Source: Rhizobium sp. 11515TR (GTDB taxonomy: Bacteria; Pseudomonadota; Alphaproteobacteria; Rhizobiales; Rhizobiaceae). Taken from it: a stretch of DNA of 64,000 nt. This document shows positions 5,395 to 39,137 of this stretch, piece after piece. The notes under the pieces are model-generated. The model was not told where the DNA came from and did no database searches. It saw only the letters and a list, made by a program, of their open reading frames with translations. Within the stretch, counting starts at the first letter, position 1, and each line of letters begins with the position of its first letter. The position numbers and the translations under genes were made by a program. The stretch spans positions 1,364,001 through 1,428,000 of the forward strand of contig NZ_CP022999.1 of assembly GCF_002277895.1 (NCBI RefSeq), read 5' to 3'.

Positions 5395-6324
5395 ATGTCG
5401 ATTCCCATGCAGAACGTCCTTCCCGGCAAGAGCGCACTTAACCTTGTTGCCAATGGAAAGGTTCTCTCCACTGCGCCCCATCGGCTCGGTTATCTCATCC
5501 CAACCGATCCAAGCATCGGTGTTGAGGCAATCCGCACGCTTTACGAGGAGAACGGCTATGTGTGGCTCAAGGGATTTCTGCCGCGCAGGGATGTGATCGA
5601 TTTTCGCGGCTGGGCCTTCGGTCATATGGCGAAGACAGGGCTGATCGAGGAGGGAACGGACCCGAGGGATGGCATATCGTATGCTTCGGCGCCAGAAGGT
5701 CGGGAGGTCGATCGTTGCCTGATGTCGCTCGTGCGCTCGGTCGCCTATGAGGGCTTTTGCGCGCAGCCGCGTCTTTCGCGCTTCATGGACGAATTCTTGT
5801 CGGGCATCTCCTACCTGCACAAGCGCAAGATCATGCGCCATGTGCGGCCGGGAACGGCGACGGCGACGCCGGCGCATTATGATCTGGTCTATCTTCGCGG
5901 CGGCACCAGCCGGATCGTCACGGCATGGATACCGATAGGCGACATCCCGATCGAAATGGGCGGGCTGACCTATCTGGAGGGATCGCACGCGATCGGCCTC
6001 GAGATGGAGCGGGAGTTTGGCGAAAACAACAGGGATCTCAGCCCTGAAGAGCGTGTCAGCGCGTTCAACCGCAATATGACGGAGGGTGGCTGGGTTTCGA
6101 AAGATCTGCCCGATATGGCGGAACGCTTCGATACGCGCTGGCTGATCGCCGATTATGAGGCAGGCGACGTCATGCTCCATTCACCATTCATGATCCACGC
6201 CTCCACCACCAATCAGGACAGGCAGCACAGACTGCGCCTTTCCACCGATATTCGCTATCAGAATGTCGAGGACGAGATCGATGCACGATGGAACAACCAC
6301 TGGACGCTCGGCGACATGCTGTGA
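5395..6324 (+). CDS. Phytanoyl-CoA dioxygenase (PhyH) family protein
   Basis: 309-residue Fe(II)/2-oxoglutarate-dependent dioxygenase of the PhyH fold. The metal triad is visible: His and Asp in PAHYDLVY (residues about 157-160) and the distal His in MIHASTTNQ, followed by the 2-oxoglutarate-binding Arg region HRLRLSTDIRYQ. ENGYVWLKGFLPR near residue 52 is the typical N-terminal strand. Substrate is unknown; family members hydroxylate small molecules, quaternary amines or lipids. It is divergently paired with an AraC regulator and is convergent with the glycosyltransferase-like gene, whose stop lies 2 bases away. Confidence 0.82.
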   Translation: MSIPMQNVLPGKSALNLVANGKVLSTAPHRLGYLIPTDPSIGVEAIRTLYEENGYVWLKGFLPRRDVIDFRGWAFGHMAKTGLIEEGTDPRDGISYASAPEGREVDRCLMSLVRSVAYEGFCAQPRLSRFMDEFLSGISYLHKRKIMRHVRPGTATATPAHYDLVYLRGGTSRIVTAWIPIGDIPIEMGGLTYLEGSHAIGLEMEREFGENNRDLSPEERVSAFNRNMTEGGWVSKDLPDMAERFDTRWLIADYEAGDVMLHSPFMIHASTTNQDRQHRLRLSTDIRYQNVEDEIDARWNNHWTLGDML

Positions 6325-6325
6325 T

Positions 6326-7129
6326 TCAGGTTTGATCCTGTTGCGGGCTCGTTCGAAGCGTGCCCCAATTGTCATCCTTTAGCACGCGTTCGATTTCCTC
6401 GACCCGATCGCGACGGCGCTTCAGCCGTTTGCCGATGCGGCCAAACCAGCGTTTGCGCTTCGTCGCCTCGCGGCTTGCCTGCAACTGCTCGATGAAGACG
6501 TCGCCGACAGCACCATTCTCGACCCGATCGAATATCCAGCAGAATGACGCAGGCAGCCTGGCTACACGGAATTGGGGCTTCGCGCTTGCTGCATCCTTGG
6601 CGATGATTTCCTCCAGAACCACCTGATCCCATACGTCAGGCTTGGCAAGGCATCCTTCTCGCCAGCGCTCGATGAGCTGTGCCGCGCCAAGCGTATCGTT
6701 GATGAGAATGGTGGCGCTGATAAGACGAGCATCGAACTCGTAATAGACTGCAATATCGCATTCGAGTTTACGAAGCTCCGGCCAGGGATTGCGATGGAGG
6801 ACGGCATCGACGTCGACATAAAGAATAGGCCCGCGTAGCCTCGCCCTTTCCTGCAGAAGGAAGCCGGGTTTCAGCCCGGCATTCAGTACCCAGCTGCCGG
6901 CGCTGGGCACTGCCGTTGCATATACCTTCAGCCCGATCCGCTCCGCCGAGTGGGTCATGCGCTCCTTTTCCTGCTCATAAAAACTGCCTTCGGTAAAAAA
7001 CGCCACAATCGGGCCGTCGGCGCTGGTTGCCGCGGATTTGCGTTCGGCCAGATCCTGTTTTGCCGGGAAGGGGACAATCAGCGCACGCTGCTGCGGGCTC
7101 CAGGGGCGAATTTTATTGAGGATATTCAA
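6326..7129 (-). CDS. Putative nucleotide-diphospho-sugar transferase-like protein
   Basis: 267 residues. A GT-A-type glycosyltransferase signature is seen: the strand PILYVDVDAVLHRNPWPEL carries a DxD motif (residues about 107-109), preceded by an N-terminal strand PIVAFFTEGSFYEQEKERM and followed by SATILINDT and the acidic WDQVVLEEII helix. A basic C-terminal tail (KRKRWFGRIGKRLKRRRDR) could contact membrane or nucleic acid. Donor and acceptor are unknown. It stands alone between convergent and divergent neighbours. Confidence 0.6.
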   Translation of the reverse strand: MNILNKIRPWSPQQRALIVPFPAKQDLAERKSAATSADGPIVAFFTEGSFYEQEKERMTHSAERIGLKVYATAVPSAGSWVLNAGLKPGFLLQERARLRGPILYVDVDAVLHRNPWPELRKLECDIAVYYEFDARLISATILINDTLGAAQLIERWREGCLAKPDVWDQVVLEEIIAKDAASAKPQFRVARLPASFCWIFDRVENGAVGDVFIEQLQASREATKRKRWFGRIGKRLKRRRDRVEEIERVLKDDNWGTLRTSPQQDQT

Positions 7130-7305
7130 GAAGGCACCTTCGGGGATTTATGAGCTTCAATCGAATATCCGGCACCACGAAGCGTTGCGGATAAGATTGA
7201 GAGTTTGGATGAATGGAGCATTTAGCCGGGCCAATTTCGGAGAGGTCGCACCGGCGACGTCCTTACTGGATTGGCAAACCGTTTGATCTTCGCTAATCGA
7301 TTGTC

Positions 7306-7473
7306 ATGTTCGATAATGTCATCAAGTTTGAACGCCGTCCGAAGCCGAAACCTCCGAGACAAACGCCTCCCTGGCTCAAGCGTTTGTTGGCAATTTTGGC
7401 CGTCATTGCATTTTTCATAGCAGCCTTTGCTTATTTCACGCTGAAGAACGGCGCAGTCGGCCCAACATTCTGA
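7306..7473 (+). CDS. Small hypothetical single-pass membrane protein
   Basis: 55 codons. The N-terminal half is basic and proline-rich (KFERRPKPKPPRQTPPW), followed by one hydrophobic helix (LAILAVIAFFIAAFAYF) and a short tail. This architecture matches a short protein common in rhizobia, recognised from memory only. No convincing ribosome-binding sequence lies just before the ATG, which lowers confidence. No function can be stated. Confidence 0.55.
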   Translation: MFDNVIKFERRPKPKPPRQTPPWLKRLLAILAVIAFFIAAFAYFTLKNGAVGPTF

Positions 7474-7774
7474 TCAGCTCGAGACCTATGCGATCTTGGG
7501 TCGATTGTCCGATCAGGTGTGGAACGGCGGTGCTTTGATTTCCGTGCTTTGCGGCTGCATTGTGGTCTTCGACGGCCCTTCCACTTTTAGGCCCTAAGCT
7601 TCCTTGTCACGTCATCGTCCCCATCGGGCGACTTTGCAACGCAGCTTTTTCGCAAAACAGCGGAAACTTGGGATAGGTTTGTTCGATAATCTATAGAATC
7701 TATAGAATGTAGTCATATGGTTGGAATCTTCATCCTTGTACTCGGCAGAGGACAATTTAAACCGGGAGATATCG
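7474..7774. other. Intergenic region upstream of sfnG
   Basis: About 300 bases with no supported gene. The only structure seen is the promoter-like sequence and tandem repeat close to sfnG (7679-7708). Confidence 0.6.
7679..7708 (+). promoter_or_regulatory. Putative sfnG promoter with tandem CTATAGAAT repeat
   Basis: TTGTTC and TATAGA are spaced by 16 bases, a plausible sigma70-type promoter. The -10 lies in the second copy of a perfect direct repeat CTATAGAAT (7691-7699 and 7700-7708), a possible regulator site for a sulfur-starvation gene. No sigma54 GG-N10-GC element was found, although sfnG in pseudomonads is sigma54-controlled as I recall. Confidence 0.4.
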
Positions 7775-12758: not shown

Positions 12759-13961
12759 TCACCAGCTCCACATGGTTCCGTCGGAAAGCCGCGCGACATC
12801 GAGATAGGCTTGCCGATAGGGGTATTTCTCGGCTGCCTTCTCGTCGAAGTCGACGCCGTGCCCCGGCTTTTCGCCGCTGTAGAGATGACCGTCCTTCAGA
12901 TGCCATTCATACGGGAAGACGTTTTTGGCTTCGTTCGGATGGAAGGCATATTCCTGAATGCCGAAATTCGGCACCCAGCGATCGAAATGCAGAGCCGCAC
13001 CCATCGTGATCGGCGACATGTCGGCCGCGCCATGGCAGGCCGTGCGGATGTGATAGAGGCCGGCGAGATCGGCGATGCGCCGCACATGCGTGATGCCGCC
13101 GGCATGCAGCGGCGTCGTGCGGATATAGTCGATCAGCTGCTCCTGGATCAGCTGCCGGCAATCATGGATCGAGTTGAAGACCTCGCCGAGTGCGAGCGGC
13201 GTGGTCGAGTGCTGGCGGATGAGGCGGAAGGATTCCTGGTTTTCGGCCGGAACTGCGTCTTCGAGCCAGAAGAGCCTGTGGCGCTCCACCTCCTTCGCGA
13301 GCCCTGCCGCTTCCTGCGGCGTCAGGCGATGGTGGACGTCGTGCAGCAGGTGGAGATCATAACCGAAGCGATCGCGCAGATGGTCGAGGAGCTTCGGCAG
13401 GAACCGCAGATAGGTCGGCGTATCCCATAACGTTTCCCTTGGCTTGTCTTCCGCCTGGGCCAGCGAACCTACCTTTTCGACGCCATAGGTGATGGGCAGG
13501 CCGGGAACGGCGCTTTGCACGCGGATTGCCTTCCAGCCTTGTTCCTTGAAGGCGGCGACCTTGTCGCCCGTCTCTTCGATCGTCTCGCCGTTGGCGTGGG
13601 TATAGGCCAGCATATGCGTGCGGCTGGCTCCGCCGAGCAGTTGATAGAGCGGCATGTTGGCCGCCTTGGCCTTGATGTCCCACAGCGCTACGTCCACGGC
13701 GGCGATTGCCGCCATGGTGATCGGGCCGCGGCGCCAATAGGCACCCTTGTAGAAATATTGCCAGATATCCTCGATCTGCGATGCATCGCGACCGACGAGG
13801 CAGGGAACGAGGTGATCCTGCAAATAGGAGGCGACGGCCAGTTCGCGGCCGTTCACCGTGGCGTCGCCGATGCCGTAAATCCCTTCGTCTGTCTCGATCT
13901 TGAGCGTGACAAAGTTGCGTCCGGGCGAGCAGACGATGACCTTCGCATTGGTGATTTTCAT
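12759..13961 (-). CDS. manD: D-mannonate dehydratase, enolase superfamily (ManD/RspA type)
   Basis: 400-residue enolase-superfamily enzyme that dehydrates D-mannonate to 2-keto-3-deoxygluconate. Residues matching those known in ManD are present: Asp208 and His210 in HDVHH, Glu234 in WLEDA, Glu260 in LGEVF for Mg2+, and Arg147 and Tyr159 in [14 protein letters not shown]. Length is that of the family. Some RspA relatives are weak or inactive, so activity on mannonate or gluconate is not proven. It lies 30 bases downstream of the MFS transporter gene in the same direction, forming a hexuronate-type uptake and catabolic pair under a divergent GntR gene. Confidence 0.88.
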
Positions 13962-13991
13962 GGAAACCCTTTCATGATCTAAGAATGTAAA

Positions 13992-15305
13992 TCATGCCTT
14001 CGGATCGGCGATCGGTTCGATGCGGCCGAGGACGAAGACATAGGAGACGATGCCGATCGCCAGCATCGCCCCGGCCAGAAGGAAGGCGCGGCTGAAGGAC
14101 TGCGTGGCGCCTACGATGAAGCCGGTGATGATCGGCGCGGCGATGCCGGTGACGCTGTTCAGGAAGTTCATGATGCCGCCAACCGTGGCCGCGCCACCTT
14201 TGGGAGCGATCAGCGCAGGGATCGACCATCCGGCCGGTGCGGCAGCGGCAAGGCCGCTCAACGAAATCGTGATCCAGAGGATGGCCCAATAGGGATCGGC
14301 CGTGAGGCCGGCGCCGACGACGGCAAGCCCCATCAGCATGCCGAAAACGATGATCGACTTGCGAACCTTGGATTCGTCGTGGCCCTTGCGGATGAGATGG
14401 TCGATCAGCCAGCCGCCGATCAGGAGATCCGAAATCGTCGCGAAGATCCATGGGATCGTCGTGAAGCTTGCCGATTTCAGGATGTCCATGTGCATCTCCT
14501 TGACCAGATAATCCGGCAGCCAGAAGATGAAGAGGGCGAAAGCGTAACCATAGGCGGCAAAGCCGATCGAAAGGCCCCAGACCTTGCGATTGCGCAGGAG
14601 GTAGCCGAGCATGCCGACGGCATTGGCCAAGGCTTCGCCTTCCTGGGCAGCGCCGCCTGCCTTCAGGTAGGTCCGCTCCTCATCGGAAAGGTTCCTGTCG
14701 GCACTGGGATCGCGGTAGAACAGCCAGAACATGGCAAAGAAGACGAAGCTGATGACAGCCGTCGCCAGGAAGCCGCCGCGCCAGCCGAAATGCAGCATCA
14801 GGAAGGCGACCAGCGGAATGGCGATGACATTGGAGAATTTCGCGGCAGCATCGAAGAGCGCGGTTGCGAGACCGCGTTCATGGCGTGGGAACCAATAGCC
14901 GGTCGCCTTCGAATTGGCCGGGAAGCCCGGAGTTTCCGCTACGCCCAGGAGCATACGGGAAAGAAAGAGCGTCTGCATGCCCGTCGAAAAGGCCGTGATG
15001 ACGGAGGCGACACCCCAGGAGAATGTGCTCCAACGCATGACCCGCATTACGCCGAAACGGTCAAGTAGCATTCCGACAGGAATTTGCAGGAAACCGTAGG
15101 TCCAGCCGAAGGCGCTGAACAAGATGCCCATTTCTGCAGGGCCGATGTGAAAATCGTCCTGAATGAGCGGCGAAGCGACCGTCAGGTTCACCCGGTCAAA
15201 ATAATTGACGAGAACGCCGAGCGCGAGAAGCGCGCCGATCCACCAGCGTCGATTGGTGGATGGTCGCCGCATGGCGCCAACGGCTGATGCGTGTTCGATT
15301 GTCAT
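13992..15305 (-). CDS. MFS transporter, anion:cation symporter (hexuronate/glucarate-like)
   Basis: 437 residues with twelve hydrophobic helices. The first loop after helix 1 carries YFDRVNLTVASP, and GMLLDRFGVMRVMRW marks the MFS loop 2-3 motif; both are typical of the ACS family (ExuT, GudP, tartrate). The ATG at 15305 has GGGAGGAATTT immediately upstream and is preferred over a start five codons earlier. Its neighbour ManD and the divergent GntR regulator suggest uptake of a hexuronate or aldonate such as mannonate; this is inference. Confidence 0.87.
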   Translation of the reverse strand: MTIEHASAVGAMRRPSTNRRWWIGALLALGVLVNYFDRVNLTVASPLIQDDFHIGPAEMGILFSAFGWTYGFLQIPVGMLLDRFGVMRVMRWSTFSWGVASVITAFSTGMQTLFLSRMLLGVAETPGFPANSKATGYWFPRHERGLATALFDAAAKFSNVIAIPLVAFLMLHFGWRGGFLATAVISFVFFAMFWLFYRDPSADRNLSDEERTYLKAGGAAQEGEALANAVGMLGYLLRNRKVWGLSIGFAAYGYAFALFIFWLPDYLVKEMHMDILKSASFTTIPWIFATISDLLIGGWLIDHLIRKGHDESKVRKSIIVFGMLMGLAVVGAGLTADPYWAILWITISLSGLAAAAPAGWSIPALIAPKGGAATVGGIMNFLNSVTGIAAPIITGFIVGATQSFSRAFLLAGAMLAIGIVSYVFVLGRIEPIADPKA

Positions 15306-15382
15306 AAATTCCTCCCTCAAAGAAATATCAGGCTAGTAATCTGAAATTTCACATGAGGCAATGATTTTGATATAGACAGCCA

Positions 15383-15400
15383 AAAGTCAATACCGACTTT
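15383..15400. promoter_or_regulatory. Candidate operator between GntR and MFS/manD genes
   Basis: Perfect inverted repeat AAAGTC-N6-GACTTT in the middle of the 151-base divergent intergenic region. Position suits a GntR-family operator, but the spacing is longer than most FadR-type sites. Confidence 0.35.
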
Positions 15401-15456
15401 CGTGAATCGGGCGGGAGGACGGTGGTGAATTCGAGCCGGAAAAGATCGACAGAGCG

Positions 15457-16194
15457 ATGATCAAAAAGGAAAAGCAGTCTCGAAGCCTGTCGGAGGAAGC
15501 CTATGATCGCCTTGAAAGCATGATCGTTTCCACCGAGCTGCTGCCCGGCGCACGCTACACGATCCAGCAGCTGCAGCAGCAGTCGGGCCTCGGCCGCACG
15601 CCTGTCCACGACGCGGTCAAGCGCCTCTCCGCAAACCAGCTTATCCATGTCAGCCCGCGCTCAGGCCTCCGGATCGCGCCTGTCAATCTGGCGCAGGAGC
15701 GGACGTTGCTTCCCTTGCGTACGGAAATGGAGGCGATTGCCTGCGGGCTTGCGACCGAGCGGGCGACGCCTCAGGATCACAAGATCCTCAGGACCTTCAT
15801 TACGGACCTGGAGGCTTCCAAGGCGGATCTCAGTCTCGAGCGGTTCAACGTCACCGACCGCCTATTGAACAGGGCAATCCTGACGGCATCCGGAGAGCCG
15901 CTTCTGGCGAACACGCTCATTCCACTTCAAACACTCTATCGTCGCACCGGATGGATCTATCATACCTATCTCGGCGCTGGCGCTCCGATGGAGACAACTG
16001 TCGGGAGCCATATATCCCTGCTGCGCTTCATCGTTTCGGGAGACCGCATCCGCACCGAGAAGTTCGTGCGAGAGATGATGGAGGACCTCGGCAATATGTT
16101 GCTGAAGGTGCGCCAGTCGATCGATCCGGCAACACTCGATGTCAGTCTTGCCGATATGGCTGTCAGGACCGGTGTCGCCGGGCCGATCAACTGA
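15457..16194 (+). CDS. GntR family transcriptional regulator (FadR/FCD type)
   Basis: 245 residues: N-terminal winged helix (YDRLESMIVSTELLPGARY, GLGRTPVHDAVKRL) and a C-terminal all-helical FCD effector domain (LPLRTEMEAIACGLAT to the end). Metal-ligand-type residues of FCD are plausible at NVTDRLLNRAIL and VGSHISLLRFI. It is divergent from the MFS-manD pair and most likely represses them in response to a sugar acid. Its 3' end converges on the ABC ATPase gene. Confidence 0.85.
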   Translation: MIKKEKQSRSLSEEAYDRLESMIVSTELLPGARYTIQQLQQQSGLGRTPVHDAVKRLSANQLIHVSPRSGLRIAPVNLAQERTLLPLRTEMEAIACGLATERATPQDHKILRTFITDLEASKADLSLERFNVTDRLLNRAILTASGEPLLANTLIPLQTLYRRTGWIYHTYLGAGAPMETTVGSHISLLRFIVSGDRIRTEKFVREMMEDLGNMLLKVRQSIDPATLDVSLADMAVRTGVAGPIN

Positions 16195-16262: not shown

Positions 16263-17369
16263 TCACGAATGTTGCAGGTCTCGCTCGACGGCCGTATCGG
16301 TCAGCCGGCGCCCGCCGGCATCGAACAGGCAGATCCGTTCCGTCCGCGGCTGCAGCCAGATCGTCTCTTCCGGTTCGATATCGAGCCGGTCATGGAAGAC
16401 GGTGACGATTGTCTGCCCGCCCACGATTGCCGTTATATGCGTTTCGGAACCGAGCGGCTCTACCACCACCACGCGCGCGGGAATGCCGATATTTGCGGGC
16501 GCGAGGGTGAGATATTCCGGCCGAATGCCGTAGACGCCTTTCACGCCGGAAACCCTGGGAGTGTTGTCGGGCAGGGGCAACAGGACGCCTTCATTGGTCT
16601 TGAAGACAGGCTTTCCGCCATCAGTGTCGAAGCGTCCATTCAGGAGGTTCATGGCCGGCGAGCCGATGAACGCGGCAACGAAGGTGCTTTGAGGGTTGTC
16701 GTAAAGCTCGAGCGGCTTGCCGATCTGCTCGATATGGCCGCCGTTCATGACGACGATGCGGTCGGCCATGGTCATGGCTTCGACTTGGTCGTGGGTGACG
16801 TAGATGGTCGTCGTTGCCAGGCGCCGGTGCAGGCTCTTGATCTCGGCGCGCATGGCGACGCGAAGCTTCGCGTCCAGATTGGACAGAGGTTCGTCGAACA
16901 GAAAGACTTGCGGATTGCGGACGATCGAACGGCCCATGGCGACGCGCTGGCGCTGGCCGCCGGAGAGCTGGCGGGGATAGCGCCCGAGGAGATCGGTGAG
17001 GCCAAGAATCTGCGCAGCATGTGCCACGCGCTTTTGCTTTTCTTCCTTCGCGGCTCCGGCAAGTGTCAGCGAGAAGGCCATGTTTTCGGCAACCGTCATA
17101 TGCGGGTAGAGCGCATAATTCTGGAAGACCATGGATATGTCGCGCTCCTTGGGCGGCAGGTTGTTGACGACGCGCCCTCCGATGCTGATCGTGCCGCCGG
17201 TAATATCTTCAAGGCCGGCGATCATTCTGAGGAGGGTTGACTTGCCGCAGCCCGAGGGGCCCACAAGCACGACGAATTCGCCGTCGGCAATGTCGGCGGA
17301 GACGCCGTGGAGAACTTCCACGGCGCCATAGGCCTTGCGTGCCTTATCGATGGTGACCGTTGCCATCAT
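16263..17369 (-). CDS. Sugar ABC transporter ATP-binding protein (UgpC/MsmX type)
   Basis: 368-residue ATPase of the carbohydrate-uptake-1 family. Walker A is GPSGCGKST, the signature is [14 protein letters not shown], Walker B is [12 protein letters not shown], and the switch His is in VTHDQVEAM; the C-terminal third is the regulatory OB-fold domain ([11 protein letters not shown]). Its start overlaps the stop of the ADP-ribosylglycohydrolase gene as ATGA, showing translational coupling. It energises the two permeases encoded upstream in the same operon. Confidence 0.93.
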
Positions 17370-19474
17370 ACCCCTCCGATCCGGATCTCGTTCGATGACA
17401 AGGCGCCTTCATGGATGAGAAGGCCGACGCCGCCGTCACGGAAGGCATCGGCGGCGGTATCTTCCGCCGTCACCGAAACACCGTCGGCTTCGAAGGTGAT
17501 GCGCGCACCCTGCGCCGAGACCTTCATGGCGATATGCTTGTCGAACTCGGTCTTGAAGGCGGTTTCGGCAAGAACCTTGGTTTCCTCGTCGCGCACTTTG
17601 ACGATCTGCATCTTGCCGTCGCGTGTCACGCGGGCGCCGTAGTATCGGCGTAGGCCCTGAGCGCGGATGGCAAGGCCACCGTAATTGCCGAGATGGATCA
17701 TAACCTGGCCCGAGGCCTGGTAGTCGGCCCATTGGCGCGTGCCGTGAATGATGATGCCTTCGCCTCGGTTCTGCGCGATGCGGAAGGCGGCTGGGAAGCG
17801 CTTGGAGAAGAAGCTTGCGCCGTTCACCCAAGCCATGCGCCAGAAATCGCCATCGCCTGCCGGGCGCTTCAATGTCAGTTTGGGCACGCCGTCCCAGCGG
17901 AGATAATCGACGAACAGGCGGCCATCGGCGCGCCTGCCGGTGCCGGTTACGACGATGCCGATCTCGGCGATCGGCTGGCCGTCGGTCTCAGGAAGGGTCC
18001 ATTCGAGAATGGCTTCCGAGCCCGGTTCTATGACGACCGGCGCCGAGTCGATGTCGCTCAACTGATCGCGTCCATCATAGACCCGGATGCGCAAACGCGC
18101 TTCGATTATGCCGCGGTTCTGGCCGTTGGCCTTGACGCGGGCCTTCACCGTCTGGCCCGGATAGACGAGTGGTGTCGCCATCAGGTCGTAGGTGCGCATG
18201 TCGAGCATTTCGCGTGGCGAGAAGGTCGGCGTCGTCACGACGGCGCTTTGCGCCGGTCCGAGGGCTTCGTAATCGATCGTCAGCGCGCGGCCGCTTTCGA
18301 ATTCGGCATTGCCGACACGCACGCCGCCTGTCGCGTCGAGACCTGTCAGTGGGCGGAAGCCCTGCTGGCTGCCGGGAAGCGAGAAGTGAAATTGCGCACC
18401 GTTTTTCGGGGCCTTGAGCGATTGTTGCCCGGCAAGCTGGAGACCGAGATTGGTCAAGAAATAGGCCTGACGCACGGCATCGTTGATGGAATTGCCGCCG
18501 TCGGCAGACGAGATCAGCATGCGATCGGCGATAGGGCCGCGGAAGTCCGGCCCTTCGGCAAGTCCATTGAGGCCGTTCATGATGCCGAGCAGGCAGCCGA
18601 CATTGCCGGCGTTGCAGTCAGTATCCCAGCCCGATGTGTTGACGATCATCTGCGCCTTTTGGAAATCGTGCGGCGCATAGAGCACCGTCATGATCATCAG
18701 CGCGTGATTGGGCATGATATGGCAGTTGCCGGGATATTTGTCGTAGCCGTAATTGTCCTGGATCTTCTGGCGCGTGTCGCGCCAATCGGGATGAGCCTTG
18801 TGCCAGGCCCTGATGTCGGCAATCAGCTTGGCGATCTGGCTGTCGCTCGGGATCTGCTTCAGCCCCGTGTCGATCAGATGGTCGATGTCTGAGGCGATGA
18901 AAGCTTCGGCCTCCATCGCCGCCCACAGCATGGCGGCATAAACGGATTCGCCATCATGGCTGACCTTGCCGGCCTGTTCCGCAAGCTTGGCCGCGAGTTC
19001 CGGCTGGCCAGGGGCGACCATCGCCCATCCATCGATGAAGATCTGGGCGCCGATCTGCTCGGCAACGCCCCGGCCATTGGTCGCGATCGAACCGGACTGC
19101 GGGGCCGGCACGCCCTTCTTGAGATTGAGCCAGGCGGTGTGTTCGGTGGAGTTGCCATTGCCGCCCCACCAGAGGATCGCGCGTTCCTCGACGATGTAGT
19201 TGAGCCAGGCCTTGCCGATTTCCTCGGCCGAGAGGTTCGATTTGATGCCGTAATCTTCCAGCGCGCGGATGAAGGTGAAGGTGCCAGCGACATCGTCGTC
19301 GGTGACGACGAGCGGCTGGTTCAGGCGTTCATGCACGTAATATTCGATAGGGCCGAGTTCTTCCATGATCTTCTGGTAGGTCCATCCCTCGAAAGGACGG
19401 CCGAGATAGACGCCGATGAGCTTGCCCAGCACGCCAGCATAGACACGTTCGAGATAGTCGTTCGGAAGCTGCAT
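17366..19474 (-). CDS. ADP-ribosylglycohydrolase-fold enzyme with C-terminal beta-rich domain
   Basis: 702 residues. The N-terminal ~340 residues match the DraG/ADP-ribosylglycohydrolase fold: [14 protein letters not shown] near residue 17, the acidic triad TDDD at 58-61, and [12 protein letters not shown] at 282-293, which supply the two metal sites. About residues 370-540 and 545-702 look like beta-sandwich domains, the last ending with the concanavalin-like pattern [21 protein letters not shown]. It sits inside a sugar ABC operon and is coupled to the ATPase gene. This context argues for hydrolysis of an imported glycoside or nucleoside-like compound, not protein de-ADP-ribosylation. No signal peptide, so cytoplasmic. 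Substrate unknown. Confidence 0.75.
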
Positions 19475-19502
19475 TGCTTACTCCATTTATCGATAAATTC
19501 GT

Positions 19503-20336
19503 TCAGCCCTTGACGGAGCCGCCAGCCATGCCCTCGATGAAGCGCTTCTGCATGAAGACAAAAAGCGCGACGACGGGCACGACGATAATGAGCGCTGCGG
19601 CCATGATCTCACCCCAATCGGAGCTGTACTGGCCGGACAGCAGGAAGAAGGCGATGACGGCGGTCATGTTCTCCTGCTTCTGCAGGAAGGTCGTGGCGAT
19701 CAGGAACTCGTTCCAGGAGTTCAATCCGATAATCAGCGCCACGGTGAGGATGCCCGGCGAGACGATCGGCAGCATCACCCGCCAGAAGACCTGCCAATGC
19801 GTAGCGCCGTCGACGATCGCTGCTTCCTCAAGCTCCTTTGGAACCGCCAGGAAATAGGTTCTGAGCAGCATCACGGCAAAGGGGCTGTAGAGCGCGGTGT
19901 AGATCAGCGCCACCCCGAAGATGTTGTTGATGAGCCCGAGCTTGGCGAAGCCGAAATAGAGCGGGAAGATATAGAGCTGGATCGGTGCGGTCGTAGTCGC
20001 CAGCAGATAGAAGGTGAAGATCTTCCAGCTTTTGATCTTGCGGCGCGCGATCACATAGGCCGTCAGCGACGATGTCGTGCAGACGAGCGCGATCGTCGTG
20101 CCGGAAACGATCAGCGAGTTGACGAAGGTTTGCGAAAATTTCGCGTGATTCCAGGCATTGGCAAAATTCTGCCAACGGATCAGTTGCGGCAGGCCGAGTG
20201 GATTCTGCACGATCTGAGCCGCCGACTTCAGCGAGTTCAGCACCAGAAGGGCGATCGGGAAGAGGGCAATGAAGGCGAATATGCCGAGAAGGATATAGCA
20301 GACCCAGAGGGTCAAGCGGCTTTCCACGAGCCTCAT
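19503..20336 (-). CDS. Sugar ABC transporter permease (MalG type)
   Basis: 277 residues, six hydrophobic helices. The ATPase-docking EAA loop is visible as KELEEAAIVDGATHWQVFWRVMLPIVSPG. The C-terminus ends with the MalG-like QKRFIEGMAGGSVKG. It overlaps the end of the partner permease gene by four bases, and the hydrolase gene follows after 28 bases. Part of the LacI-controlled operon at 16.3-23.6 kb. Confidence 0.93.
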   Translation of the reverse strand: MRLVESRLTLWVCYILLGIFAFIALFPIALLVLNSLKSAAQIVQNPLGLPQLIRWQNFANAWNHAKFSQTFVNSLIVSGTTIALVCTTSSLTAYVIARRKIKSWKIFTFYLLATTTAPIQLYIFPLYFGFAKLGLINNIFGVALIYTALYSPFAVMLLRTYFLAVPKELEEAAIVDGATHWQVFWRVMLPIVSPGILTVALIIGLNSWNEFLIATTFLQKQENMTAVIAFFLLSGQYSSDWGEIMAAALIIVVPVVALFVFMQKRFIEGMAGGSVKG

Positions 20337-21181
20337 TGTTCGCCCTCCCTGGTCTGGATGCGCACGTAGAAGAAGGTGCCGACCAGCCCGAACAGGCTGA
20401 TGACGAGGGCTGCCGCGGCCGCCTGTCCGACGTTCAGATCATAGAAAGCCTTGCGATAGGCGAGTGTCGACAACAGTTCGCTAGAGAAGGCGGGGCCGCC
20501 TTGGGTGAGGATGTAGACGAAATCGAAGGCGAGGAACGACCAGATGACGGTCATGATCATCATCAGCGTAATCGTAGGCCGGATGCCGGGAAGCAGCACA
20601 TAGCGCATCATCTGGAAATAGGTGGCGCCTTCGATGCGGGCCGCCTCGATCTGCTCCTGCGGCACCTGCCGCAATGCGGCGAAGAAGATGACGCAGAGGA
20701 AACCCCACCAGTGCCACAGGTCGACGGTTGCGACGCCGAACAGCGCGATCGGCGGCTGGGTCAGCGGATTGGGGATCGGCAACCCGTATTTCTTAAGGAG
20801 GCCGAAGACGCCGGTCACGGGGCTATAGATCATCCCCTGCCAGATGCGGGCCGTGATCGCAGTCGCGATGACGACAGGCAGGAAGTAGACGACCTGGAAG
20901 AAATTGCTGCCGCGTCGCACGATCAGCAGCATCGAGGCGGCCAGCAGCCCCATGAGGATTGGCACCGTCAGGAAGACGATGGTCCAGATGATGTTGTTGC
21001 CGAGCGCCAGCCAGAAGACGCGGTCGTCGGCAAGCGCGCGGAAATTGTCGAGGCCCGCAAAGGTGGGCGGGGAAATGCCGTCCCAATTGCAGAAGGCGAG
21101 TGCCACCGTCAGCAAAGCAGGGACGAGGACGATGATGATATTAATGATCATCGTCGGAACGAGATAGAGTCGGTGCATCAT
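20333..21181 (-). CDS. Sugar ABC transporter permease (MalF/UgpA type)
   Basis: 282 residues with six hydrophobic helices and the EAA loop QEQIEAARIEGATYFQMMRYVLLPGIRP. It pairs with the MalG-type permease to form the membrane channel. The start has GGAGGATATG spacing just upstream, 48 bases after the binding-protein stop. Confidence 0.92.
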   Translation of the reverse strand: MMHRLYLVPTMIINIIIVLVPALLTVALAFCNWDGISPPTFAGLDNFRALADDRVFWLALGNNIIWTIVFLTVPILMGLLAASMLLIVRRGSNFFQVVYFLPVVIATAITARIWQGMIYSPVTGVFGLLKKYGLPIPNPLTQPPIALFGVATVDLWHWWGFLCVIFFAALRQVPQEQIEAARIEGATYFQMMRYVLLPGIRPTITLMMIMTVIWSFLAFDFVYILTQGGPAFSSELLSTLAYRKAFYDLNVGQAAAAALVISLFGLVGTFFYVRIQTREGEQ

Positions 21182-21229
21182 ATCCTCCGGGCGAGGACGG
21201 CGCTTTCAACGCCGTCCTGCGGCGGCTTG

Positions 21230-22549
21230 TCAGGCGCGGGGCGGGACCGCCGGCGCCTTGCCGGCGTCACGTTCCTGCTCGAAGGTCTCGTCAAGCTTCT
21301 TCAGGAAGTCGGCCGATTTCGTTTTCTTGAGCCAGACTTCCTCCATGCCGCTGACCAGGTATGTGTCCGTGGCCGGCGGCAGGAAGGTCCAGGTCGTATA
21401 GCCGTATTTGCCGGCGGCGACTGCGCCTGCCAGCTGCTTCATGGCGTCCTCGTAAAGAGGCAGGACCTTATCGGAGAGTTTGACCTTGGAGAGATCGGCC
21501 AGCGGCAGGTTCCATTCGCCCTGCCAGACTGAGTTCATCTTGCTGTAGTAGTCGTCCGTGAACATGTAGTCGAGAACGGCAGCTGCGCCGTCGGCATTGC
21601 CCGACTTGGCGTTGATCGACAGCGTCGAGCCGATGCCGAGCGCGAAGATTGGATCGCCTTTCTCGCTCGGGAAGCCGACGAAACCGGGTTCCGCGTTGTT
21701 CTGCGGGAAATAAGTCTGGACGTTGGTGAAATTCCAGGTGCCGGTCGGCGCCATGCCGGCCTGGCCGCTGGCGATCTGCGCAAAGGCCTGCTCGAGCGTC
21801 AGCGAGAAGTAGTTGTCGCCGAAATATCCCTTGTCCCACCACTCCGCGAGCTTGTCGATCGAGTGGACGAAGGCGGGATCGGTCCATGGGATGGCGCCGG
21901 TCAGCGCCTTGTAGACATTCTCTGGTCCCGCAATCGAGTTGAAGGCGATCGAGACATAATGCTCGTTGGCCGGGCGCCAGTCGGCATTGCCGGCACCGAA
22001 TGGGGTCAGGCCCTTGGCCTTCATCTCGTCGGCAAGCGCCTCGAAATCTGATATCGTCGTTGGGACCTTCCATTTGTTCTGTTCGAACAAGGTCTTGTTG
22101 TAGAAGAGGCCGAGCGTTTCGTATGTCTTCGCGAGCGCGTAGAGCTTGCCATTGTACCGGCCGAGATCGAGGAAGAGCGGCAGCAGACGCTCGTCCCATC
22201 CGTATTTCTTGGCGTAGTCGTCAAGCGGCATAAGCTGACCGGCCTGTGCCATTGCCGCGACATAACTCGGGCCGGCCGTGAAGACGACATCGGGGCCGGT
22301 GCCGGCCAGCATCGCGACGCGCAGCTGCTTGTCGAGATCCGAGCCGCGGAAGTCGATGCTCAGGAGGTCTTCGGGATGTGCCGCATTGAACGGGTCGATC
22401 AGAATGTTCTTGAGGTTATCTTGGTTCTCCGGCGAAGCGGATTCGTACCAGAAGGATATGGGCTTTTGATCCGCCGCGAATGCGAAGCGGGACATAAGCG
22501 GCAGGGCAGCCAGGCCGAAGCCGGCTTTCAAAACTGTACGTCTGTGCAT
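21230..22549 (-). CDS. Sugar ABC transporter substrate-binding protein
   Basis: 439 residues of the family-1 extracellular solute-binding type. A signal peptide is visible (basic MHRRTVLKAGFG, hydrophobic core, cleavage near FAFAADQ). Family segments include SIDFRGSDLDKQLRVAMLAGTGPDVV and the Gly/Trp-rich GQAGMAPTGTWN. The gene follows lacI by 24 bases and precedes the permeases. Ligand unknown. Confidence 0.92.
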   Translation of the reverse strand: MHRRTVLKAGFGLAALPLMSRFAFAADQKPISFWYESASPENQDNLKNILIDPFNAAHPEDLLSIDFRGSDLDKQLRVAMLAGTGPDVVFTAGPSYVAAMAQAGQLMPLDDYAKKYGWDERLLPLFLDLGRYNGKLYALAKTYETLGLFYNKTLFEQNKWKVPTTISDFEALADEMKAKGLTPFGAGNADWRPANEHYVSIAFNSIAGPENVYKALTGAIPWTDPAFVHSIDKLAEWWDKGYFGDNYFSLTLEQAFAQIASGQAGMAPTGTWNFTNVQTYFPQNNAEPGFVGFPSEKGDPIFALGIGSTLSINAKSGNADGAAAVLDYMFTDDYYSKMNSVWQGEWNLPLADLSKVKLSDKVLPLYEDAMKQLAGAVAAGKYGYTTWTFLPPATDTYLVSGMEEVWLKKTKSADFLKKLDETFEQERDAGKAPAVPPRA

Positions 22550-22573
22550 CGGTTTTCTCCTCCCGATTTGATT

Positions 22574-23587
22574 TTATTCGTTGCGCGTCGAACCCCTGAC
22601 GATGAGATCGAAAGGCATTTCAACGGCCGTTCCAGCACCGGTCTTCTCTCCGCGCAGGCGGTCCATCAGCGTCTGCGCGGCACGTTCTCCCATTTTCCAT
22701 TGAAACTGCGCGACCGTCGTCAGCGTCGGGGTGACGAGCTTGGCGGCGGAAATATCGTCGAAACCGACGACGGCGATATCCTCGGGAATGCGGATGCCGC
22801 GTTCACGCAGCGACTGCATCACCCCGATCGCCATCAGGTCGTTTGCGGCAAAGATGGCGGTCGGTCTGAAATCACCGGCAAGAATGCTCTCGGCCGCGCG
22901 TATGCCGCCCATCTCGGAAAATTCGTCATCAATGACGACGTGATCGGGATGGCCGAGTTTTGAGAGCGCCGTACGATAACCCTCGATACGATGGGCCTGC
23001 GGACCGCCGCGACCGGCGACGAGCGCGATGCGCTTGTGACCGAGGCGCAGCAGATATTCCGTCACCGTCTGCGCCGCCGCCCTGCTGTCGACATAGATGT
23101 CGTCGATCGGAATTTCGCCACCGCGCTTCTTGGATGATTCAATTCTCACTATGGGAACGCCGGCCTCGACCAAGGGATTGAAATCCTTGGCCTTCAGCGT
23201 GAAGAAGACGCCGACCACGCCATCGACACGGCCCTGTCGGGCCCAATCGAGAAAATGACGCTCGCGCTCGGGCGTCCCGTCCGTGTTGACCGTGATCACA
23301 TCGTAGTTCTGGCCGTCGGCGATCGACTGAATGCCGCGAATCAAAGACGGATAGAACGGATTGGTGATGTCGGGCACGATGCAGGCGATGGTCATCGTGC
23401 GGCTCGTCTTGAGCGCTTGCGCAAAACGGTTTGGTACGTAGCCGAGGTCCTTTGCCGCCTTGGTGATGCGCTCCCATGTCTCCGCCGGGATGGATGCTCC
23501 GCCGCCGCTCAGCACCATGGAAACGGTGGCCTGCGAGACCCCCGCAGCCCTTGCGACATCCTTTTGCGTTGCTCGTCCGTTTGTCAT
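22574..23587 (-). CDS. LacI family transcriptional regulator of the ABC/hydrolase operon
   Basis: 337 residues. The LacI helix-turn-helix is QKDVARAAGVSQATVSMVLSG and the hinge is TWERITKAAKDLGYVPNRFAQALKTSR; the rest is a periplasmic-binding-protein-like effector domain. It is the first gene of the operon that continues with the binding protein, permeases, hydrolase and ATPase, so autoregulation is expected. The ATG at 23587 has no ribosome-binding sequence; a TATAAT ends only 10 bases before it, so the mRNA may be leaderless. Confidence 0.9.
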   Translation of the reverse strand: MTNGRATQKDVARAAGVSQATVSMVLSGGGASIPAETWERITKAAKDLGYVPNRFAQALKTSRTMTIACIVPDITNPFYPSLIRGIQSIADGQNYDVITVNTDGTPERERHFLDWARQGRVDGVVGVFFTLKAKDFNPLVEAGVPIVRIESSKKRGGEIPIDDIYVDSRAAAQTVTEYLLRLGHKRIALVAGRGGPQAHRIEGYRTALSKLGHPDHVVIDDEFSEMGGIRAAESILAGDFRPTAIFAANDLMAIGVMQSLRERGIRIPEDIAVVGFDDISAAKLVTPTLTTVAQFQWKMGERAAQTLMDRLRGEKTGAGTAVEMPFDLIVRGSTRNE

Positions 23588-23597
23588 CGCTCGCGTA

Positions 23598-23624
23598 ATT
23601 ATACGTATTAGTTATACGTATCAA
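23598..23624 (-). promoter_or_regulatory. Promoter and tandem operator for the lacI-ABC-hydrolase operon
   Basis: On the minus strand TTGATA and TATAAT are 15 bases apart. The same stretch holds two perfect copies of TTATACGTAT (23599-23608 and 23612-23621; period 13), each with the palindromic core ATACGTAT. This placement over the -10/-35 fits repression by the LacI protein it precedes. Confidence 0.6.
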
Positions 23625-38117: not shown

Positions 38118-39137
38118 TTAGGTGCGAACGGGGCCAGTGGAGTCGCGCCGGATCAGGGTGACAGGCACTTTGATGAAGGTGTTCATTCGCCGCTCGCCAT
38201 CGACCTGATCTTCATCGATCAGGGCCTCCAGTTGCCGGACCGCCTGCTCGCCGACGCCGCGGATCGGTTGGGCGATGGTCGTCAGCCGCGGAAAGACATA
38301 GGCTGCCTCCGGTAGATCGTCGAAACCGATCACCGAATAGTCGCGAGGCACGGAAAAGCCGTGATCCTGAACGGCATGGATCGTAGCAATCGCCGATATG
38401 TCGGTCGTCCCGATGATACCTGTCATCTCAGGCCGGGAGGCGACCAATTGCTTTGCGAGCGGATAGGTGGCGGCAAAACTATGTTCCTCTGCCATGAAGA
38501 TGGCAGGGGGTGCGATGCCGCGCTCGGCCATCTCCTCTTTGATGCCGCGAAGCCGAAGCTGGACCGGCTGGCTGTGGGCAGGGGCGCCGACAATGCCGAT
38601 TTTTCGATGTCCGAGCTCGATCAGGTGGCGGGCCATCATCCGCCCGCCTTCCTCATGGTCGGCCATAACGGCATCACCAGCTATTCCGGGAAGCTCGCGA
38701 TCGATGGCGACGATCGGGATATGGGCTTCGTGCAGGGCCTCGAAATGCTCCGTGCTGCCGAAGGCGCTCGCAACGATGACGCCATCGACGCGCTGCGACA
38801 GCAGCATGGAAATATAGCGCGCTTCGTGCTCCATGTTTTCGGCGGTGCTGCATATCAAGGTCTGATAACCGCGCTGGAACAATTCCTGCTCGATTGCGTG
38901 GGCAAGAATGCCGAAAAAGGGCACGTCGATCGACGGCAGCATCAACCCTATCATCCGGCTCGGCGCGCCGCGCAGCATGCGCGCACCTTTGCTCGGGGTG
39001 TAGTTGAGCGTGCGGATGGCAGATTCAACGCGCTCCCGCAGTTCCGGAGAGGCATAGCCGCTATTGTTCAGCACCCGCGAGACCGACGAGACCGACGTTC
39101 CTGCAAGCTTGGCGATATGTCTGATGCTGGTCGTCAC
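38118..39137 (-). CDS. LacI family transcriptional regulator of the sugar catabolic cluster
   Basis: About 339 residues. The helix-turn-helix is SIRHIAKLAGTSVSSVSRVLNN, followed by the hinge and a ligand-binding domain (RMIGLMLPSIDVPFFGIL to the C-terminus). A GTG at 39137 immediately before the HTH is preferred over a TTG 20 codons upstream. It converges on the dehydrogenase gene and probably binds the palindrome at 33234-33251. A likely promoter lies at 39253-39281. Effector unknown. Confidence 0.88.
   Translation of the reverse strand: MTTSIRHIAKLAGTSVSSVSRVLNNSGYASPELRERVESAIRTLNYTPSKGARMLRGAPSRMIGLMLPSIDVPFFGILAHAIEQELFQRGYQTLICSTAENMEHEARYISMLLSQRVDGVIVASAFGSTEHFEALHEAHIPIVAIDRELPGIAGDAVMADHEEGGRMMARHLIELGHRKIGIVGAPAHSQPVQLRLRGIKEEMAERGIAPPAIFMAEEHSFAATYPLAKQLVASRPEMTGIIGTTDISAIATIHAVQDHGFSVPRDYSVIGFDDLPEAAYVFPRLTTIAQPIRGVGEQAVRQLEALIDEDQVDGERRMNTFIKVPVTLIRRDSTGPVRT

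Follow-up and report, generated by a model that had tools for sequence, protein, structure and literature searches.

The 64,000-nucleotide stretch of DNA considered here (the window), from the plant-associated soil bacterium Rhizobium sp. 11515TR, carries, on its minus strand, a six-gene operon that probably, if by no means certainly, serves the catabolism of one imported glycoside, most likely a ribofuranoside, which would be cleaved in the cytosol by an enzyme with the ADP-ribosyl-hydrolase (ARH) fold. In the order of transcription, the genes encode a LacI-family repressor, a solute-binding protein, permeases A and B, a 702-residue protein of family PF03747 and an ATPase of the MalK/UgpC type (table 1). 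It is proposed that the binding protein and the ATP-binding cassette (ABC) importer would take up a small pentofuranose-bearing glycoside, most probably a ribofuranoside, and that the ARH-fold enzyme would use a two-metal site to hydrolyse the glycosidic bond of this compound, while its lectin-like domains would assist in binding the furanose-containing substrate. The freed pentose would then be phosphorylated by a ribokinase, encoded next to the operon in several relatives and elsewhere in the genome in Rhizobium sp. 11515TR, and LacI would repress transcription through a tandem operator until the substrate, or a product, arrives. The proposal draws its support from the conservation of the operon, the ARH fold with its acidic metal residues retained, the links with sugar kinases, the precedent of fructofuranose recognition by CBM66 domains, and the gene context of a Deinococcus homologue (locus L100). 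That the operon mediates import and intracellular cleavage of a single compound had been put forward in a preliminary description of the sequence, and this receives good support from the conservation of the operon, an operator pair of its own, ribokinase-like neighbours that recur in relatives, and domains resembling carbohydrate-binding modules (CBMs).

Conservation and regulation of the operon

The gene order initially read from the sequence was confirmed by the open reading frames (ORFs), all on the minus strand, and by their Pfam domains. By ORF coordinates, the description of the genes as tightly packed with overlapping junctions applies to two of the five junctions, with an overlap of 4 bp at permease/permease and again at enzyme/ATPase, whereas 24, 48 and 28 bp separate the genes at the other three. 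The joint presence of SBP_bac_1, two BPD_transp_1 and ABC_tran/TOBE domains identifies a CUT1 sugar ABC importer, and the ATPase scores above the cut-off of NF008653 (UgpC subfamily). The enzyme is the sole PF03747 match in the 7.07 Mb, three-contig genome.

The genome-neighbourhood survey suggested in the preliminary description was carried out by scanning GTDB genome contigs with the enzyme, which yielded 50 loci, and by counting a gene as present at 50% identity or more. All six genes are found with order and strand maintained in 31 of the 50 loci (enzyme identity, 60–96%), and five further loci contain five of them without an ATPase of 50% identity; the other 14 differ or are cut short. 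The operon occurs in Rhizobium, Shinella, Mesorhizobium, Devosia, Pleomorphomonas and other genera, in Kaistia and a Bosea without the ATPase, while in two Enterobacteriaceae loci a LacI and a binding protein are the sole partners of the enzyme. Among the named relatives retrieved, the closest are Rhizobium tropici, R. dioscoreae and R. multihospitium, with enzymes that are 95–96% identical. The six-gene arrangement is, by far, beyond chance. Across the phylum, the enzyme is rare, with matches at E 1e-60 in two of the 398 genomes of a spread sample, that of Rhizobium sp. 11515TR included.

The TNATACGTATNA pair upstream of lacI is a putative target of the repressor. Among 51 sequences with a LacI of at least 50% identity (the window included, some being near-copies), the ATACGTAT core is present upstream of lacI in all, and the pair with 13-bp spacing (up to two mismatches) in 48, the exceptions being L035, L036 and L052 with a single ATACGTAT core each; in shuffled upstream sequences the core was found in 4/1020 and the pair in 1/1020. 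With up to three mismatches allowed, the tandem pair has a single occurrence in the 7.07 Mb genome, upstream of lacI, so that this operon is most likely the only one under the control of the repressor, as judged from the distribution of its predicted site. A stricter single-site pattern gave no genome match, but it misses even the sites of the window. The best NCBIfam models for the repressor are RbsR (NF047341), at 252 bits against a cut-off of 382, and CytR, at 213 bits against 436; neither score reaches its cut-off. A second LacI-family gene of the window (38136–39122) lies approximately 14.5 kb away and is 29% identical by tblastn.

Table 1. The operon, its operator-like sites and the parts of the enzyme, in window coordinates.
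Feature	Position	Strand	Domains or remarks
Tandem operator-like pair, TGATACGTATAA-C-TAATACGTATAA	23599..23623	-	pair of palindromes, each centred on ATACGTAT, with 13-bp spacing; directly upstream of lacI
LacI-family repressor, 337 aa	22574..23587	-	Pfam LacI + Peripla_BP_3
CUT1 solute-binding protein, 439 aa	21230..22549	-	PF01547 (SBP_bac_1)
Permease A, 282 aa	20333..21181	-	PF00528 (BPD_transp_1)
Permease B, 277 aa	19503..20336	-	PF00528 (BPD_transp_1)
ARH/DraG-fold enzyme with two C-terminal beta domains, 702 aa	17366..19474	-	PF03747 (ADP_ribosyl_GH)
ARH catalytic domain, residues 2-351	18422..19471	-	residues 97-146 of low model confidence
TDDD motif, residues 58-61	19292..19303	-	three Asp invariant in 44 aligned sequences
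GWDTDCNAG motif, residues 282-290	18605..18631	-	DTDC in 44/44 sequences
Jelly-roll CBM-like domain, residues 356-529	17888..18409	-
CBM66-like lectin domain, residues 533-702	17369..17878	-
MalK/UgpC-type ATPase, 368 aa	16263..17369	-	PF00005 (ABC_tran), TOBE_2, OB_MalK

The region adjoining the operon (12759–16194) encodes a D-mannonate dehydratase (scoring 690 bits with the ManD model, above cut-off), a major facilitator superfamily (MFS) transporter whose nearest model is a D-galactonate transporter (below cut-off), and a GntR/FCD regulator. By ORF clustering, MFS and GntR homologues flank the operon in eight of the 50 loci, all from close relatives.

The enzyme and the binding protein

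The enzyme matches PF03747 over residues 14–306 with 189.1 bits against a cut-off of 26.2. Its structural model (predicted local distance difference test, pLDDT, 82; predicted template modelling score, pTM, 0.87) shows a catalytic domain with the fold of ARH1, ARH3 and DraG, and specifically ARH3-like. Inspection by eye revealed no obvious signal peptide, and a cytosolic location is likely. ARH1 and ARH3 share the motif E...[S/T]DDT...D[S/T]D[S/T], and mutating even one metal-coordinating residue abolishes their activity (PMC6309922); in ARH3, Thr317 binds one Mg (PMC8141533). The window enzyme has TDDD...DTDC in place of this motif, with Cys287 at the position of Thr317. In an alignment of 44 sequences, namely that of the window and 43 picked from the matches at 30–84% identity to it (alignment numbers are higher by 1), all have the Glu, the three Asp and DTDC. 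A profile comparison with Escherichia coli YegU and six short proteins of the ADP-ribosylglycohydrolase (ADPRGH) family also lines up the Glu, TDD and DTD residues, YegU having TDDT/DTDT and the short Agrobacterium and Deinococcus paralogues DTDS. From these alignments, the branch keeps the acidic metal residues but is not a plain ARH, because one Thr ligand is exchanged for Cys. Both motifs initially described as intact are present, but the second is not intact by ARH standards. In locus L046, a second, shorter PF03747 protein, encoded close to the long one but on the other strand (6040–7653), also has DTDC, so that the Cys variant extends beyond the long enzymes.

Searching the PDB with the enzyme sequence (phmmer) gave no match at 1e-3, while its profile retrieved CBM66 chains (E approx. 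1e-4) and MJ1187 at E 0.11 only. Structure prediction of the C-terminal region, one of the checks originally proposed, yielded a jelly-roll CBM-like domain and a CBM66-like domain, in agreement with the carbohydrate-binding-like character first attributed to them. Membership of the latter in CBM66 is indicated by both fold and profile: the CBM66 of Bacillus subtilis levanase SacC superposes on it at 1.9 Å over 152 residues. It differs from the SacC module in sharing only 18% identity with it and in being attached to an ARH-fold enzyme that lacks an obvious signal peptide. The ligand of the founder of the CBM66 family is terminal fructofuranose (PMC11002231), and a role of the window domains in furanoside recognition may be envisaged.

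The N-terminus of the binding protein appears, by eye, to be that of an exported protein. Its nearest solved chains include binders of xylobiose/xylo-oligosaccharides, chitin oligosaccharides and glucose, and the structural matches of its model also include proteins that bind a dinucleotide or glycerophosphocholine. Its best matches, from sequence and model, are binders of neutral mono- and oligosaccharides. Among the substrates initially listed, a riboside fits best, whereas ADP-ribose itself fits less well because of this resemblance.

Kinases and other gene company of the relatives

A ribokinase-like gene of the PfkB family adjoins the enzyme gene in L013 (Shinella) and in L047 (a gammaproteobacterial metagenome-assembled genome), lies between two ADPRGH genes in L053 (Deinococcus), and is found downstream of the ATPase in L093 and L094. 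In four Bosea-like loci (L029, L084, L085 and L086) it is divergent from lacI, so that the intergenic region with its operator-like sites is common to both. It is also present beside a sister enzyme in L058, the kinase of which is 56% identical to that of L013, and in L083. The best family of these ribokinase-like linked genes is TIGR02152 (204–291 bits, equivalog cut-off 299.65), which is the best match for nine of the ten kinases tested, E. coli YegV included (YegV weakly). The linked kinase is the sole TIGR02152 match of at least 200 bits in three genomes that are 91–98% complete (G439, G504 and G530), and likewise in G655, where its coordinates agree with those of the L047 kinase. Over 17 genomes, treated as independent even if several share a genus, six linked kinases were seen against 0.15 expected by chance; the count per genus is 2/8 (P 0.0018, with representatives selected once the kinases had been identified). 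The counts leave out short kinase-like matches in L057 and L081. In the genome of Rhizobium sp. 11515TR, the ribokinase-like candidates lie elsewhere, at C1:1137961 and C3:1422977. On a tree of 75 rows (71 distinct), the kinase label requires nine changes, so that the association has been gained or lost repeatedly, the count being approximate for a quickly built tree with long-branch warnings (L053, L059 and L095 among them).

The sister enzyme, 30–36% identical to that of the window, is encoded in nine loci (L054, L056–L059 and L080–L083) together with a second, short ADPRGH, a LacI and sugar-type ABC genes. On a Deinococcus plasmid (L100, a second copy) a long ADPRGH is found among genes annotated as GH2, a trehalase-family glycosidase, a RICIN-domain protein, a solute-binding protein and an ABC permease, and in L037 (Albidovulum) a Peripla_BP_4 binding protein and a gene read by eye as GH1 come after the enzyme. 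As far as gene content can tell, these neighbourhoods look like glycoside use rather than protein modification.

Several observations weigh against the proposal. All ten kinases score below the ribokinase equivalog cut-off of 299.65 (80–291 bits), and that of L043 is more like IolC/fructokinase. The kinase is absent from the window operon and from the vicinity of most loci, including most of those of Rhizobium, and it is present in only 13 of the 75 tree rows, some of which are cut short. The model of the enzyme has low confidence at residues 97–146, a segment that ranks with its best-conserved parts; the 50 solved entries listed for the binding protein share no more than 23% identity with it; and CBM66 specificity varies, another member binding xanthan and not fructans. 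Furthermore, downstream of the long enzyme, six of the nine sister operons (L054, L056 and L080–L083) contain genes for a CaiB-type CoA transferase and an HpcH-type lyase (by Pfam for L056 only), for which a simple riboside does not account.

Alternative explanations, precedents and significance

The strongest competitor, to which we assign a distinctly smaller but real likelihood, retains the import scheme with another glycoside (a fructofuranoside, an arabinofuranoside or a pyranoside) and linked PfkB kinases of other specificity. The fructofuranose ends bound by the CBM66 founder, the fructokinase-like character of the L043 kinase and of that of L044, 85% identical to it, an L044 ORF approximately 6 kb away that was read by eye as GH32-like, and the xylobiose, chitin oligosaccharide and glucose ligands of the nearest solved binding proteins would all agree with it. 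What argues for a riboside instead is the preference of nine of ten kinases for the ribokinase model and the four genomes in which the linked kinase is its sole strong match.

It is unlikely that an ordinary ADP-ribosyl-protein hydrolase, a regulator of the DraG/ARH type, happens to be located in a sugar operon. PF03747 membership, the ARH3-like fold and the retained catalytic Glu and acidic metal residues are what such a protein would have, but the metal motif deviates from that of ARH1/ARH3, the enzyme carries two additional, sugar-binding-like domains in a sugar-import operon conserved as a unit, and its relatives are repeatedly paired with sugar kinase and glycosidase genes. No DraT (PF07357) match was found in this genome at 1e-3 (completeness, 99.99%), and on that ground the classic DraG role in DraT/DraG nitrogenase regulation is rejected for it; of the 23 genomes searched, five had DraT matches, and these five belong to a single genus.

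Equally improbable is the import of ADP-ribose, a nucleotide sugar or another phosphorylated conjugate for hydrolysis inside the cell. ADP-ribose is the known ligand of the fold, the E. coli yegTUV repressor YegW is a sensor of ADP-glucose (PMC10819704), and the dinucleotide and glycerophosphocholine binders found among the structural matches would fit, but the best matches of the binding protein point to neutral sugars. Arsenosugars, also considered as substrates, were set aside since ribokinase requires a free 5-OH.

The preliminary description went further in suggesting that the operon could define a new catabolic route, which is not shown, as transport-linked ADPRGH proteins with a sugar kinase are already on record. 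E. coli yegTUV encodes a putative nucleoside:H+ symporter, an ADPRGH and a PfkB kinase under the repressor YegW/GgaR (PMC10819704), and resembles the window operon in placing a transporter and an ADPRGH-family enzyme under the control of their own repressor; its sugar kinase has a counterpart in some relatives of that operon. It differs in that YegU is a 334-aa single-domain protein, the transporter is of the MFS and not the ABC type, the repressor belongs to the GntR and not the LacI family, and the PfkB gene is inside the operon. Staphylococcal cassettes described in 2010 and 2013 have an ADPRGH, a cytosine/purine permease and a ribokinase side by side (PMC3637587, PMC3321955); SERP2216–2218 follow the same transporter, ADPRGH and ribokinase logic, but with a single permease of another family and a short ADPRGH gene (987 bp) in a mobile cassette. 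Among the open-licence PMC titles and abstract openings listed, none concerned an ABC-linked, CBM-bearing ADPRGH or an ADPRGH in a sugar ABC operon.

A bolder extension, which we regard as speculative and improbable, is that the long GWDTDCNAG enzymes form an unrecognized, furanoside-specific glycoside hydrolase family re-using the ADP-ribosyl-hydrolase fold, and that the operon lets plant-associated rhizobia feed on disaccharide nucleosides of plants, for example 3'-O-beta-D-ribofuranosyladenosine, releasing ribose and adenosine in the cell. This compound is reported to accumulate in infected Arabidopsis leaves as a major metabolome component, and its addition left the multiplication of Pseudomonas syringae unchanged (PMC6290457). 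Under the main proposal, nucleosides and this compound are candidates for the natural substrate, the link to the latter being speculative.

At least 7,807 of 7,999 scored candidates are relatives at E 1e-3, all branches pooled, and the named ones among the matches listed are mostly labelled just ‘ADP-ribosylglycohydrolase’. If the branch is indeed a carbohydrate-catabolic glycosidase, this label misleads for a large group of proteins, a fold associated with signalling would have a feeding role, and E. coli yegTUV, the gene functions of which are given as unknown in PMC10819704, would gain a testable explanation.

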